Shown here piece by piece: positions 6,577-11,386 of a stretch of DNA of 64,000 nucleotides; the stretch's first letter is position 1; every line of letters begins with the position of its first letter. The DNA comes from Phyllobacterium myrsinacearum (GTDB taxonomy: Bacteria; Pseudomonadota; Alphaproteobacteria; Rhizobiales; Rhizobiaceae), in assembly GCF_014138285.1 (NCBI RefSeq), contig NZ_JACGXN010000001.1, positions 1,849,314 through 1,913,313 on the forward strand, in the 5' to 3' direction. The translations under genes and the position numbers were made by a program. A model generated the notes under the pieces. That model was not told the DNA's origin and made no database searches. It was given only the letters and a program-made list of their open reading frames with translations.

Positions 6577-7731
6577 TCAGGTGTTGATCAGTCCCTGCAG
6601 GGATCGGTCAAAGGGGCGGCTGGGAAAGAGCGTTTTCATGGTGCGCTCAGGTTCCAGACCAAATGTTTCTGCAGCGAGCGCTGCAATCAGGACGTCGAGA
6701 TCCATGGTGGGTTTCAGGTCGCGGTTTTCATAAAGCGCATTCGGCGCAAGGCCCGGCCAGTCGGTAAGGATGCGCCCGCCCTTGACGGCGCCGCCGAGAA
6801 TGAGCGCGGTTGTTGCCGTGCCGTGGTCCGTCCCGCCGGTGCCATTGGCGGCGGCAGTGCGGCCGAATTCGGTTGCCACAAGCACCGTTGTCTGCTGCCA
6901 GACATCGCCAAGCCCGTCGCGCATGGCATCGATCATGGTGTCGAGTGCCTTGAGCTGGCTGGCGAGCCGGTTTTCCTGGCCGCTATGGGTATCCCAGCCG
7001 CTGGTCTCGATCATGGCGATGCGTGGACCGTCGATCCGGGCGAGCGCTTCGGCCGCAGTTCTGCCCGCAGCGGCGGGGTTCTGACGCGTTTCCATGTCCT
7101 TGAAAAAGCCCCGCGCTTCCATGGCGGCACTCCAGACCGGGTGAAACTGCTGGTCCCGGTCGTAGAGTTGCGCAACCCGCAGCAGGAGATCATCCGGAGC
7201 TTCCGGCAGGTTCGACGGCGCATAGGAGGTAACGTCGGCGGAACCGCGCAAGGCGGCCGGTATGGTCGGGGCGAAGGCGATGGCCTTGTCAGCTGATTTC
7301 GGCAGCAGCGTCACAAGCCGGTTCAGCCAGCCGTCCCTGATCTGGTATGGACTGGTGCCGCCGGTTTCGAGAACGTTCTGGCCATCGAAGTGCGAGCGCT
7401 CGCGGTAGGGTGAGGCGACGGCATGGACGAACAGCGCCTGCCGGTTGCTGTAGAGCGTTCCCATGCCAGTGAGTGACGGATGCAGCGCAAAGGTCCCGTC
7501 AAGCTTGATGGCATCGGAAGTCTGGATCGCCAGACTGCCCCGCAACTGCGCATAGGCCGGGTCGGCATAGGGTACGACAATGTTGAGACCATCGGCGGCA
7601 CCGCGCTGAATGATGAAAACGAAACGGCGGTCGGTTGCGACATTGGCAAAGACAATGCGCGGTGCCACGAGCATCGATCCCGCACCGATGGCGGCCAGAC
7701 GCAGGAAATTACGGCGGTTGGTCATGCTCAT
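6577..7731 (-). CDS. DUF1501 protein, Tat-exported
   Basis: A 384-residue DUF1501 protein (COG4102; alkaline-phosphatase-like fold group). The N-terminus has a twin-arginine signal: RRNFLRLAAIG (R6-R7) followed by a hydrophobic stretch and an alanine-rich cleavage region, so it is expected to fold in the cytoplasm and be exported. The VFIIQRGAADGLN block (about residues 33-45) and the later ATEFGRTAAANG and GGTDHGTATT segments are family hallmarks. Its start overlaps the DUF1800 stop by 4 nt, and DUF1501/DUF1800 pairs are a widespread but poorly understood gene couple. It is probably under the ECF sigma factor encoded upstream (see promoter motif at 9160-9188). Confidence 0.9.
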   Translation of the reverse strand: MSMTNRRNFLRLAAIGAGSMLVAPRIVFANVATDRRFVFIIQRGAADGLNIVVPYADPAYAQLRGSLAIQTSDAIKLDGTFALHPSLTGMGTLYSNRQALFVHAVASPYRERSHFDGQNVLETGGTSPYQIRDGWLNRLVTLLPKSADKAIAFAPTIPAALRGSADVTSYAPSNLPEAPDDLLLRVAQLYDRDQQFHPVWSAAMEARGFFKDMETRQNPAAAGRTAAEALARIDGPRIAMIETSGWDTHSGQENRLASQLKALDTMIDAMRDGLGDVWQQTTVLVATEFGRTAAANGTGGTDHGTATTALILGGAVKGGRILTDWPGLAPNALYENRDLKPTMDLDVLIAALAAETFGLEPERTMKTLFPSRPFDRSLQGLINT

Positions 7732-9119
7732 CTCCGTTGAAAGTCGGGTGAAACAAGCAGAAGGGCGACGCCCGTCTGGATGGATTCGGCGCGGTTGATT
7801 TCCGTTGCCGTGGTGTCGGTCAACGCGTTTCCGAGCAGGTTGTCCGCCAGCTCCTGCGGTTTCAGCGACCGGTCGGCCTTTGCTGCCAGCCGCTGGGAGA
7901 CCTCGACGCGCCGCACCAGCGCATCGGGCGCAAGCCAGCTGGCGGCAATGTCGTCATAACCGGCAGGTGAGCGGGGCAGCCAGACCGGCTGTCCCAACTG
8001 GTCCAACAGGTTGGCGAAGTTGGCTTTGCCAAGGTCGGGATAGTCCAGCCCGCGCATGGCAGAGACCAGCCATTCCCATGGTGTCTTGATCTTGGAGGAC
8101 TGAGATGTCCACGCTTGGGGTGCCTGAACGAGTGCTTCATAAACGGTCGGTAAATTGCCGTCCGAGGCGAGAAATGCCTTGCTGACCCGGTTCACGACTG
8201 CATGCGGTGGTGTGTCGGAGATAAAGTGGCGGCAGAGTTTTGTCGCGATATGTTTCGCCGTTGCCGGATCGCTGGCAAGGTCTTTCAGGACGGCGCCCGC
8301 CTGATCTTCGCCTGTTGCGCCGTAAACGCGGTGGCGGATCAGCCGGTCGCCGGGCTGGTGCAGGCCGGGGCGATATTGAAAAACACCCGCCTCGTTGGTA
8401 TCGGCCTTGCCGCCCATGCGTCCCGCAGACCAGCCGGTGAGGGCCAGCGCAAACTCCGTGACATCCTTTTGCGTGTAACCGGACCCGACACCAACGGTGT
8501 GCAGTTCCATGATCTCGCGGGCAAGGTTCTCGTTGATCCCCGGCAGCTTATCGGCATTGCGCCGTTTGGCGCGTGCCGCCAGCGGACTGTCAGGGCCTGC
8601 CGAGCGGATCTGATCGAGATAGATCAGCATGGCCGGATGCTGCTCGACGGCAAACAGCAGATCGGTAAAGTGGCCTGTGATGTGCGGGCGGATCGCTTCC
8701 CGCTCGAAGGCGCCGGCAAGGCTCAACATGGGAGGGTTGTCGGCCGACACGGCAAAATGGTTCGACCAGAAATGGACGAGCGCTTCCATAAATGGCGTCG
8801 GTGTCTGCAAAGCATTGAGGCCGCGTGCCTCGATTTCGCTGCGGTAGAGCAGGCGGGCAGCTTTGTTCAGTTCCTGCTGCAGCGCAATTCTTTCATCCCC
8901 CGCGAGCGCCTGCAGTTTTTGCCGGTCATCGGCATAATTCGTCGCGATTTCTGGCGTGGTCTGCAACTGTGTAAAGGCCGAAGGATGCGGCTCATATTCA
9001 GCAATCTGATCCAGCAGCCAGCGGCGCGGTTCCGCAGGAAACGGCTCGCTTGCCCGCTTTCCCAAGCCAAAGCGATTGACTGCAATGGCAGCGGTCGCAT
9101 CGGGTGTGGTGGTGACCAT
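7728..9119 (-). CDS. DUF1800 protein
   Basis: A 463-residue DUF1800 protein (COG5267). Visible family features are AVNRFGLG near the N-terminus (about residues 14-21), the FWSNHFAVS segment in the first third, NENLAREIMELHTVGVGSGYTQKDV in the middle (split as NENLAREIMELHT and GVGSGYTQKDV) and FISDTPPHAVV. It has no obvious signal peptide, unlike its Tat-exported DUF1501 partner, with which it overlaps by 4 nt; joint export or complex formation is possible but unproven. A GCGACGGATT-N13-CGTTCA motif lies 40 to 70 nt upstream and matches one before the sigma-factor operon. Confidence 0.9.
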   Translation of the reverse strand: MVTTTPDATAAIAVNRFGLGKRASEPFPAEPRRWLLDQIAEYEPHPSAFTQLQTTPEIATNYADDRQKLQALAGDERIALQQELNKAARLLYRSEIEARGLNALQTPTPFMEALVHFWSNHFAVSADNPPMLSLAGAFEREAIRPHITGHFTDLLFAVEQHPAMLIYLDQIRSAGPDSPLAARAKRRNADKLPGINENLAREIMELHTVGVGSGYTQKDVTEFALALTGWSAGRMGGKADTNEAGVFQYRPGLHQPGDRLIRHRVYGATGEDQAGAVLKDLASDPATAKHIATKLCRHFISDTPPHAVVNRVSKAFLASDGNLPTVYEALVQAPQAWTSQSSKIKTPWEWLVSAMRGLDYPDLGKANFANLLDQLGQPVWLPRSPAGYDDIAASWLAPDALVRRVEVSQRLAAKADRSLKPQELADNLLGNALTDTTATEINRAESIQTGVALLLVSPDFQRR

Positions 9120-9159: not shown

Positions 9160-9188
9160 TGAACGGGAGGACCGGAGAAATCCGTCGC
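9160..9188 (-). promoter_or_regulatory. Putative ECF promoter of DUF1800-DUF1501
   Basis: Read on the minus strand: GCGACGGATT, 13 nt, CGTTCA. The same arrangement with the same spacing (GCGACGGATT-N13-CGTTTA) occurs at 11097-11125 before the operon that encodes the ECF sigma factor. The predicted start site would give a leader of about 30 nt in both cases. No other copy was noticed in the intergenic regions checked by eye. Confidence 0.65.
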
Positions 9189-9193
9189 CGTGC

Positions 9194-9664
9194 CTATTCT
9201 TTTTTTGCCGGTGCTTGCCGCAGGATGATATTGCGCTTTTTCAGACCATCGACGAGCGCCTTGCGATCATCAGGCGAAAGGCTTTCGGCGAATGAGACGA
9301 TCGTCTGCTCGATACGGGTCCGCAGGGCAAAATCGGCGTCACGCGCCTTGGTCAATTCCGCGCTGATGGCCACGGGATCGACCACATCCTGCGCCAGCAG
9401 GCGGGCGATCTCGGTGCGGCTTGCCCGACCGGCATCCGCCAGCGGCACATTGTCTTTGCGCGCGGCCGACAGGCTCTGGCGTAGCGTCTTCTGCTGTTCC
9501 GGTGTCAGGTATTCGGCGGCAAAACGAACGCCGCGCCGGTTCTCCGTCGTCCAGGAATGCCCGAATGTGTGCCAGATATATCCGCCGCCGATCACGCCGC
9601 CCGCGATGAAGACATTCAGGGCGAGCGAGGCGATGAGAAGCATATTGCGGGATCGTTCGCTCAT
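9194..9664 (-). CDS. CpxP/ZraP-like periplasmic sensor protein
   Basis: 156 residues: one N-terminal transmembrane helix or uncleaved signal anchor (about residues 8-28, LLIASLALNVFIAGGVIGGG) and a helical periplasmic part with two LTxxQ-like motifs, LTPEQQKTLR and LSPDDRKAL. This matches the periplasmic heavy-metal-sensor/CpxP-Spy-like group that monitors envelope stress. Its ATG abuts the stop of the anti-sigma-like gene, so it is the last gene of the sigma operon. It could help the anti-sigma factor sense the periplasm; this role is inferred from position and fold. Confidence 0.75.
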   Translation of the reverse strand: MSERSRNMLLIASLALNVFIAGGVIGGGYIWHTFGHSWTTENRRGVRFAAEYLTPEQQKTLRQSLSAARKDNVPLADAGRASRTEIARLLAQDVVDPVAISAELTKARDADFALRTRIEQTIVSFAESLSPDDRKALVDGLKKRNIILRQAPAKKE

Positions 9665-10075
9665 TTACTCGTCCATTTCATCGGTAATGTTGAAAGCGGT
9701 GACCGCATAGGCCTGATCCTCATACCCACGTGTCTCGGCGGAGTGAATGACACCGATAAGGAGTGCTCCGGTGATCGCACCCGCGAGCCCAATTCCGGCG
9801 ATACCCGTGCCCTGCCACCACAGACGTGCCCGTCTCCAGCCAGACCAGGACTTGCCCGATGCGGCGATGATCTTTTCCCGCAGGACCGTGTCCGGCTGGG
9901 CAATCTGATAGCCCGACAGCAGGGTGTCGAGTTTTGCCGCTGCCGCGAGCGCGGGCCGGGCAAGATCCGGATAATCTTTGATGAATACCACTGCCGCTGT
10001 CTGCTCCGGCGGCGGCCATCGCCTGACATCGGCACCGTAGATTTCCGTCAATTCCTGAAAACGCTCCGGTGTCAT
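9665..10075 (-). CDS. Anti-sigma-factor-like membrane protein
   Basis: 136 residues: a cytoplasmic N-terminus of about 85 residues starting MTPERFQELTEIYGAD, one membrane helix (about residues 91-111, GTGIAGIGLAGAITGALLIGV) and a short periplasmic tail. The layout and the 4-nt overlap with the preceding ECF sigma gene are those of a single-pass anti-sigma factor. No zinc-binding HxxxCxxC motif of the ZAS class is present, so it would belong to a non-zinc class. The partner relation is inferred from coupling, not from a recognised domain. Confidence 0.7.
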   Translation of the reverse strand: MTPERFQELTEIYGADVRRWPPPEQTAAVVFIKDYPDLARPALAAAAKLDTLLSGYQIAQPDTVLREKIIAASGKSWSGWRRARLWWQGTGIAGIGLAGAITGALLIGVIHSAETRGYEDQAYAVTAFNITDEMDE

Positions 10076-10632
10076 CGTGATTCCTCCCGTTTCTCCGCCT
10101 CTTCCAGAATAGCCCGCAGATTGCGCCGGGCCCGCGCCAGGAGGCTTTCAAGTGCTTCAATGCTTATATTCATAATCTCGGCCGCCTCGATATTGGTGAA
10201 CTCCTGATAGTATTGAAGTACGATTGCCTCCCTCTGCCGGTCCGGCAGGGAGGCAAGTGCTTGTTGGATGCGGTCGCTTTCATCCTGGGTTGAAAGCGCT
10301 TCTTCGGGTCCCGGCGCGGTATCCGGCGTGTCAGGTGCCTCGGCGACCGGCTGTTCGCGATGGCGGCGCAGGCGGTCGTAACAGAGGTTGAGCGTGACCC
10401 GGTGCAACCACGTGTCGAAGGTGGCACGGCCGGATTGCCACTTCCCCGCCTGCCGCCAAAGCCTGACAAAGGCTTCCTGTGTCACGTCTTCGGCCTCGTG
10501 TCTGTCGCCAAGCATCCGCACTGCCATGGCAAGCAGGCGCGGCAACTTTCTGGTCACCATGGTGCGGACGGCAGCGTCGTCGTGCTGACCGATCCGGACC
10601 AGAAGTTCTTCATCGGTCTTGCGATTGTCCAA
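10072..10632 (-). CDS. ECF RNA polymerase sigma factor
   Basis: A 186-residue group-4 sigma factor. Region 2 spans about residues 25-90 with MLGDRHEAEDVTQEAFVRLWR and the RATFDTWLHRVTLNLCYDRLRR helix; a proline/aspartate-rich linker follows; region 4 (about 125-175) has ALASLPDRQREAIVLQYYQEFT and an ISIEALESLLARARRNLR recognition helix. Only two sigma domains are present and there is no SnoaL or other C-terminal extension. It follows the EF-hand gene by 18 nt and overlaps the anti-sigma-like gene by 4 nt. It probably transcribes its own operon and DUF1800-DUF1501 from the shared upstream motif. Confidence 0.93.
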   Translation of the reverse strand: MDNRKTDEELLVRIGQHDDAAVRTMVTRKLPRLLAMAVRMLGDRHEAEDVTQEAFVRLWRQAGKWQSGRATFDTWLHRVTLNLCYDRLRRHREQPVAEAPDTPDTAPGPEEALSTQDESDRIQQALASLPDRQREAIVLQYYQEFTNIEAAEIMNISIEALESLLARARRNLRAILEEAEKREESR

Positions 10633-10650
10633 TGTTTTGCACGCTTGCCG

Positions 10651-11058
10651 TTACTCCTGCGAACTGTCTGCAGCACCCTTCTTGTGCGGATGGCGCTCGT
10701 CCTTCGACAATTGACCATCGGCATTCTTGTCGAGACGCTCGAACCGCTTCTTTGATACAATATCCATTTCTGCTGTATCGATGAAGCCGTCATGATTGGT
10801 GTCGATGCGGTTGAACAGTGCCGTTGGGTCGCGCTTGGCATTCTTTGGGGCGGGGCGCTTCAGCCATTCTTCAAGCGACAGTTTACCGTCACCATCCGTG
10901 TCAAACTTGAGAAGCCGCGTCCGCGCTGCTGCCTGATATTCGTCCAGCGAAATCATGCCATCGCCGTTTGTGTCGGCTTTCGGCGCCGCCATTGCCATGG
11001 GCGCGGCAAGGGACAACGGCAGGAGGGCAACAAGAATAGCTGCTCGTTTCAATGTCAT
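10651..11058 (-). CDS. Secreted EF-hand calcium-binding protein
   Basis: About 135 residues with a signal peptide (MTLKRAAILVALLPLSLAAPMAMA) and four EF-hand loops in two pairs: DTNGDGMISLDEY, DTDGDGKLSLEEW, DTNHDGFIDTAEM and DKNADGQLSKDER. All four keep the D-x-[DN]-x-[DN]-G ligand pattern and a terminal E, so calcium binding in the periplasm is expected. Two adjacent ATGs (11061, 11058) follow AAGGA; I prefer 11058 for spacing. It is the first gene of the ECF sigma operon, an unusual companion that could be an output of the regulon or part of its signal sensing. Confidence 0.88.
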   Translation of the reverse strand: MTLKRAAILVALLPLSLAAPMAMAAPKADTNGDGMISLDEYQAAARTRLLKFDTDGDGKLSLEEWLKRPAPKNAKRDPTALFNRIDTNHDGFIDTAEMDIVSKKRFERLDKNADGQLSKDERHPHKKGAADSSQE

Positions 11059-11096
11059 CATTTTTCCTTTCGGGAAACTGTCATCTGTCATGGGCT

Positions 11097-11125
11097 TAAA
11101 CGGTCAAAGCGGGACAATCCGTCGC
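11097..11125 (-). promoter_or_regulatory. Putative ECF promoter of the EF-hand/sigma operon
   Basis: Read on the minus strand: GCGACGGATT, 13 nt, CGTTTA, ending 36 to 39 nt before the EF-hand start codon. It shares the first ten bases, the spacer length and the CGTT core with the motif before DUF1800 (9160-9188). The CGTT core resembles -10 elements of alphaproteobacterial ECF promoters. It would make the sigma factor autoregulated. Confidence 0.65.
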
Positions 11126-11357: not shown

Positions 11358-11386
11358 CTGTAACATTACTGTCATATGACTGTTAT
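11358..11386 (+). promoter_or_regulatory. Triple Pho box of the pst operon
   Basis: Three 7-nt direct repeats, CTGTAAC, CTGTCAT and CTGTTAT, are spaced by 4 nt (ATTA, ATGA), giving the 11-bp period of PhoB binding units (consensus CTGTCAT-like). The site lies 67 nt before the pstS start. Phosphate-limited activation by PhoB, encoded at the end of this operon, is expected. Confidence 0.9.

Follow-up and report, generated by a model that had tools for sequence, protein, structure and literature searches.

In the 64,000-nucleotide stretch of Phyllobacterium myrsinacearum DNA analysed here (the window), an ECF sigma factor probably drives its own operon and the DUF1800-DUF1501 genes from two predicted GACGGA-N15-CGTT promoters; a periplasmic signal would free it from a putative anti-sigma factor. 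The features concerned follow each other on the minus strand in this order:

11097..11125, minus strand: predicted promoter 1, GCGACGGATT-GTCCCGCTTTGAC-CGTTTA (N13), heading the EF-hand/sigma operon; based on sequence, shuffles and conservation
10651..11061, minus strand: EF-hand protein; four stretches matching Pfam EF-hand models (EF-hand_5); N-terminus hydrophobic by hydropathy
10072..10632, minus strand: ECF sigma factor; PF04542 and PF08281; NF004113 (PRK05602); recognition-helix residue Glu159
9665..10075, minus strand: putative anti-sigma factor; one membrane helix at about residues 89-113; F..L...YG.....WP conserved in the N-terminal part
9194..9664, minus strand: Metal_resist protein; PF13801; N-terminal membrane helix (hydrophobic stretch)
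9160..9188, minus strand: predicted promoter 2, GCGACGGATT-TCTCCGGTCCTCC-CGTTCA (N13), heading DUF1800-DUF1501; based on sequence, shuffles and conservation
7728..9119, minus strand: DUF1800 protein; PF08811, E 7.7e-116
6577..7731, minus strand: DUF1501 protein; PF07394, E 5.1e-37; Tat signal, TIGR01409 above cut-off

The two GCGACGGATT-N13-CGTTYA sites described in the first-pass annotation were confirmed; they share their first ten bases and a spacing of 13 nt. CGTT lies 42 nt from the DUF1800 ATG at 9119; for the EF-hand gene the distance is 37 nt with a start at 11061 and 40 nt with one at 11058. These starts of the EF-hand gene are preferred to its first in-frame ATG at 11091, which lies only 7 nt past CGTT. 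The identities assigned to the DUF1800, DUF1501, ECF sigma and EF-hand genes were upheld by PF08811, PF07394, PF04542/PF08281/NF004113 and EF-hand_5. The account of the operon left the Metal_resist gene unnamed and did not include the published counterpart of the EF-hand/sigma loop.

The ECF protein consists of regions 2 and 4 only, scores 286.4 bits against NF004113 (curated cut-off 208) and is 91% identical to its counterpart in Phyllobacterium sp. OV277. The EF-hand protein is probably exported; against the NCBIfam lanmodulin model it gave E 1e-13 and 51.5 bits, far under the 135-bit cut-off. For the putative anti-sigma factor the conserved motif was taken from a 10-member alignment and the helix from hydropathy, which displayed one hydrophobic stretch. 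Neither the protein nor the alignment gave a Pfam match, and the alignment gave no match to PDB sequences. The Metal_resist protein is a possible periplasmic sensor, and its only match among PDB sequences was a non-significant one to CpxP (E 0.15). Its gene ends 5 nt ahead of promoter 2. Upstream of the operon, at 11358-11374, lies CTGTAACATTACTGTCA, which we take to be Pho-box-like and which precedes the divergent pstS gene adjoining the EF-hand/sigma operon.

The DUF1501 and DUF1800 genes overlap by 4 nt. A Pfam search with 52 DUF1501 members revealed no wider superfamily, the one weak match (Phosphodiest, E 0.27) occurring in a single member, and PDB sequence searches with DUF1501 and DUF1800 came back empty. 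GWDTH and TDHG stretches are invariant across the 52 DUF1501 homologues and look like metal ligands. Close relatives of both proteins are held by Paraburkholderia, Caballeronia and Delftia (P0051, P0053, P0168, P0182).

Searches for GCGACGGATT-N12/14-CGTT returned two matches in the window and none in 100 shuffles. The genome-wide search proposed in the first-pass annotation was carried out with the same pattern and gave three matches in the 5.97-Mb genome, with none in the reversed control. The third exact match was rejected as a promoter; it lies inside open frames (L001:1248-1557) and is absent from the other four of the five Phyllobacterium genomes compared. The looser form CGACGGA-N15-CGTTNA occurs at a chance level of about one per genome, with 12 matches in 15 sigma-negative Phyllobacterium genomes and 23 matches of the reversed control over all 20 genomes of the genus. 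The question of chance is settled by the conservation of the sites across Phyllobacterium loci.

Both sites were retained, with differing spacers, in all six Phyllobacterium loci examined (five genus genomes and L016). Orthologous upstream regions had been set beforehand as the place where the proposal could fail; the motif was not lost there, and besides the 6/6 Phyllobacterium loci both sites were present in 3/6 other family-level ECF genomes. The ECF gene occurs in 5 of 20 Phyllobacterium genomes and the window-type DUF1800 (at least 82% identity) in the same five, two of which also carry a remote second DUF1800. L016 (P. myrsinacearum DSM 5892) has a broken EF-hand gene, at 6754-7010, but retains the promoter site and the other genes of the sigma operon. 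Since the site was kept despite the broken gene, the EF-hand part is not essential everywhere. Phyllobacterium sp. 628 has the locus with an intact EF-hand gene.

The family-level sample comprised 121 genomes, seven of which, the window genome included, have the ECF gene at E 1e-40 or better. DUF1800-DUF1501 adjoins the sigma operon in four of the other six (G028, G088, G073, G107). Three of these (G028, G073, G107) have both sites, that at the G107 ECF gene ending in CGTC and that before the G073 DUF1800 gene lying 542 nt ahead of the domain, beyond the 300-nt range used at class level; G088 has the DUF1800 site only. In G009 and G113 the DUF1800 gene is unlinked and the sites are variants, with a CGTC ending before DUF1800 and CGTA at the ECF gene. 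No site was found at the 16 DUF1800 loci of sigma-negative genomes in the family sample, and the opposite strand carried one at 1 of 31 sigma-positive DUF1800 loci. With a matrix trained solely on ECF-upstream sites (25 with an exact GACGGA core), which misses other -35 types, a score of at least 12 was reached before DUF1800 at 13/31 sigma-positive versus 0/16 sigma-negative loci. One sigma-negative locus, L267, scored 14.6 on the other strand.

Among 385 genomes of the class Alphaproteobacteria, NF004113 was found at E 1e-40 in 140; it also occurs in C. vibrioides among the named controls. Sixty of the listed ECF places, in 58 genomes and taken largely from the head of the list, were inspected as stretches, some of them cut by contig ends. 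Profiles built for this analysis matched a Metal_resist protein in 57, the putative anti-sigma factor in 53, the EF-hand protein in 33 and DUF1800-DUF1501 in 4. In the 1200 nt ahead of the ECF domain, exact GACGGA-N15-CGTT was present in 18/60 stretches and the N16 form in 4/60, with none in the reverse-complement and reversed controls; spacings of 13, 14 and 17 gave no forward match and at most one in a control. With three -35 types (GACGGA 25, GCAGGA 9, GCAGGG 14), followed at N15 or N16 by CGT, a site was found upstream in 48/60 stretches versus 2/60 on the other strand, the GCAGGG type having been defined after inspection of 12 of these same 60 loci.

DUF1800 was found at E 1e-90 in 90 of the 385 class genomes, with 116 places listed. 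The ECF and DUF1800 genes co-occur (both in 53 genomes, ECF only in 87, DUF1800 only in 37, neither in 208; p 7e-7). We examined 106 of the 116 upstream regions, omitting nine further places in already represented sigma-positive genomes and a partial match in G208. Using GACGGA and CAGGA classes that, here as in the family sample, were likewise fixed after seeing the data, a site within 300 nt before DUF1800 was found in 18/53 sigma-positive versus 1/36 sigma-negative genomes (p 4e-4). When nine genomes with DUF1800 linked to the ECF gene were removed, the sigma-positive count was 17/44 (p 9e-5). The other-strand control gave 2/53 and 0/36, and addition of GCAGGG as a third type changed the counts to 20/53 versus 1/36. 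The proposed tie between sigma factor and DUF1800 is thus borne out by sequence comparison: unlinked DUF1800-DUF1501 genes of sigma-positive genomes carry predicted sites far more often than those of sigma-negative ones.

A GACGGA or CAGGA site before DUF1800 is lacking in 35 of the 53 sigma-positive genomes, or in 33 with the third type added. In the nine linked class genomes an own GACGGA/CAGGA site before DUF1800 occurs only in the window genome, and the eight other linked DUF1800 genes, which are among those 35, may be transcribed by read-through of the sigma operon. The single sigma-negative genome with a DUF1800 site, G489, consists of 440 contigs and is labelled with the genus of the sigma-positive G316 and G412; a sigma gene may therefore have been missed in it.

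To compare -35 types between the two promoters, a set of 59 sigma-positive genomes with DUF1800 was used (53 class, 6 family). In the 18 genomes with GACGGA or CAGGA at both promoters the type agreed in all (10 and 8, respectively), with p 2e-5 if genomes are exchangeable and p 0.008 when each family is counted once (5 and 4). Adding GCAGGG as a third type gained no agreeing pairs and four disagreeing ones (G231, G286, G354, G464). Of all columns of the sigma protein, the one separating GACGGA from GCAGGA loci best was Glu159 (window numbering), which the ECF model places in the region 4 recognition helix. This residue is acidic in 44/44 GACGGA rows and Gly in 9/9 GCAGGA rows; in the 14 GCAGGG rows it is Lys in 8, Ser in 4, Gly in 1 and Glu in 1. 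In the tree, 22 of the 23 GCAGGA or GCAGGG rows fall within one supported clade of 30. Since these rows mostly belong to one deep clade, the number of independent type switches is small. Two genomes, G313 (L206/L220) and G409 (L207/L218), have two copies of the sigma module each, with Pro at the helix position in one and Lys in the other, and DUF1800-DUF1501 adjoins the Lys copy only.

Further regulon members were sought with GACGGA-N15/16-CGTTNA, which gave 33 places in the five Phyllobacterium genomes. The only other place common to all five lies inside the gene for ribosomal protein L19, and one common to three lies inside a solute-binding protein gene of the window genome; both were rejected. 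The predicted Phyllobacterium regulon is small, with two conserved promoters only in the five genomes. The pattern CGACGGA-N15-CGTTNA had 37 matches in 18 other sigma-positive genomes, versus 14 for the reversed control. Thirty loci were looked at individually, and several of them proved to be sigma operons or fell within open frames. Among the genes next to the GACGGA-type sites were an HlyD/RND-type adaptor gene (G487, L404), two EF-hand genes (G259 and G229; L423 and L414) and an RcnB-like gene whose match is barely above the cut-off (G461, L409). A further neighbour in G487 encodes a protein that looks Metal_resist-like, without a Pfam match. These single predicted sites fit an envelope and metal theme, which is suggestive only.

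In the nickel/cobalt signalling system CnrYXH of Cupriavidus metallidurans, an ECF sigma factor, a short one-helix anti-sigma factor and a membrane-anchored periplasmic sensor are encoded together, and the window operon would work in a similar way. The window ECF protein is similar to CnrH (E 2.9e-13), and a membrane-anchored sensor of the Metal_resist type (PF13801) is encoded beside it. However, SigW and others are closer to it by sequence, the putative anti-sigma factor was not recognizable as a CnrY from Pfam or PDB sequence matches, and the EF-hand partner and DUF1800-DUF1501 target are additions. Because the anti-sigma candidate matches nothing known, we do not claim membership of the CnrYXH group.

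A published counterpart is found in C. vibrioides, where the periplasmic EF-hand protein CaBP is encoded ahead of sigV (PMC13171946). There the cabp start was mapped by 5'-RACE to 40 nt before the ATG, with -35 GGAAA, 13 nt and -10 CGTTCA; this promoter was weak in a sigV deletion, strong with extra SigV, and induced by EGTA and acid (PMC13171946). The window resembles this arrangement, with its EF-hand gene directly before the ECF gene and a GGAnn-N13-CGTTCA-like promoter at 11097-11125. The C. vibrioides promoter sequence was taken from the text of the paper; the primer 'cabp 5'' given there ends in gcgacgga, which suggests that the cabp promoter has the full GCGACGGAAA (PMC13171946). C. vibrioides has a DUF1800 gene and an NF004113 member, and the latter is presumably SigV. 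The systems differ in that cabp and sigV are reported as separate, monocistronic transcripts, and the sections of the paper that were available do not mention DUF1501 or DUF1800 (PMC13171946). In the published scheme the membrane component of the CaBP-SigV circuit is marked with a question mark (PMC13171946); the window's genes for the putative anti-sigma factor and the Metal_resist protein are candidates for this role.

DUF1501-DUF1800 operons, with the same gene pair as in the window, have been described beside bacterial chitin synthases, where a Tat motif was noted for DUF1501; the available part of that report makes no connection to a sigma factor (PMC5122149). None of the openly licensed papers searched links a sigma factor of this kind to DUF1501 or DUF1800. 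The EF-hand/sigma loop had already been published. No description of the DUF1800-DUF1501 arm, of the conserved membrane genes or of the covariation turned up in that literature.

By comparison of sequences, the promoter pair, its conservation, the co-distribution and the covariation can be regarded as established at the level of predicted sites. We infer sigma binding, the anti-sigma role, sensing by the Metal_resist protein, the signal and the function or use of DUF1800-DUF1501 as follows. At rest, the one-helix membrane protein would hold the sigma factor. A periplasmic signal, which could be calcium, another metal or acid envelope stress, would free the sigma factor, with the Metal_resist protein reading this signal and the EF-hand protein tuning it. 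The sigma factor would then recognize both GACGGA-N15-CGTT promoters, of which promoter 1 would drive the EF-hand protein, the sigma factor, the putative anti-sigma factor and the Metal_resist protein, and promoter 2 DUF1800-DUF1501. In this way it would amplify its own operon and induce the exported DUF1501 protein with its DUF1800 partner. An autoregulated ECF factor with DUF1800-DUF1501 as target is what the first-pass annotation had proposed, and conservation, co-distribution, -35 agreement and, by analogy, the SigV-dependent promoter of Caulobacter all argue for it.

Both sites could instead be served by EcfG, the general stress sigma factor known as SigT in Caulobacter, or by a different resident ECF factor. 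The EcfG general stress promoter, reported as GGAAC-N16-CGTT at about 79 transcription units in the species studied, resembles the window sites in its -35 GGA and its -10 CGTT, and in Caulobacter extra SigT is reported to raise sigV promoter activity and both promoters are called SigT/SigU-like (PMC13171946). However, the EcfG motif has GGAAC and a spacing 3 nt longer than that of the window sites, and no GGAAC-N15/18-CGTT was present in either upstream region of the window. Moreover, the sites track the local ECF family and its recognition helix, and cabp stays low in the sigV deletion (PMC13171946), so we consider service by EcfG or another resident factor unlikely.

The 35/53 sigma-positive genomes that have neither a GACGGA nor a CAGGA site before DUF1800 would agree with a sigma factor that only autoregulates, in which case the DUF1800 site would have another user or be left over from a local duplication. 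This is very unlikely in view of the sites with spacers of their own that precede unlinked DUF1800 operons in several families, and of the complete type agreement. A fortuitous match of two short elements, for which the frequency of the looser motif forms might be cited, has a negligible probability: it is already contradicted by conservation in Phyllobacterium, and the shuffles and the spacing and strand controls also speak against it.

With the local ECF factor preferred as the regulator of both operons, a broader reading can be offered tentatively, as a possibility that we would not yet favour over its negation. Alphaproteobacteria may possess an old envelope sigma pathway, tuned by calcium or metal, that has DUF1800-DUF1501 as its dedicated output. 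In it, one residue at the start of the recognition helix may set the -35 element (GACGGA with Glu or Asp, GCAGGA with Gly, GCAGGG with Lys or Ser), and the missing link from EF-hand protein to sigma factor may be the Metal_resist protein together with the YG..WP membrane protein. If one helix residue sets the -35 element, promoters would be predictable from the sigma protein, and the way in which -35 type and recognition helix change together provides a testable specificity rule. DUF1501 and DUF1800 are common families without known function, and their apparent control by a sigma factor places them for the first time in a regulatory context that can be tested. With so small and defined a regulon, calcium limitation, acid and metals suggest themselves as the conditions under which their function may be sought.
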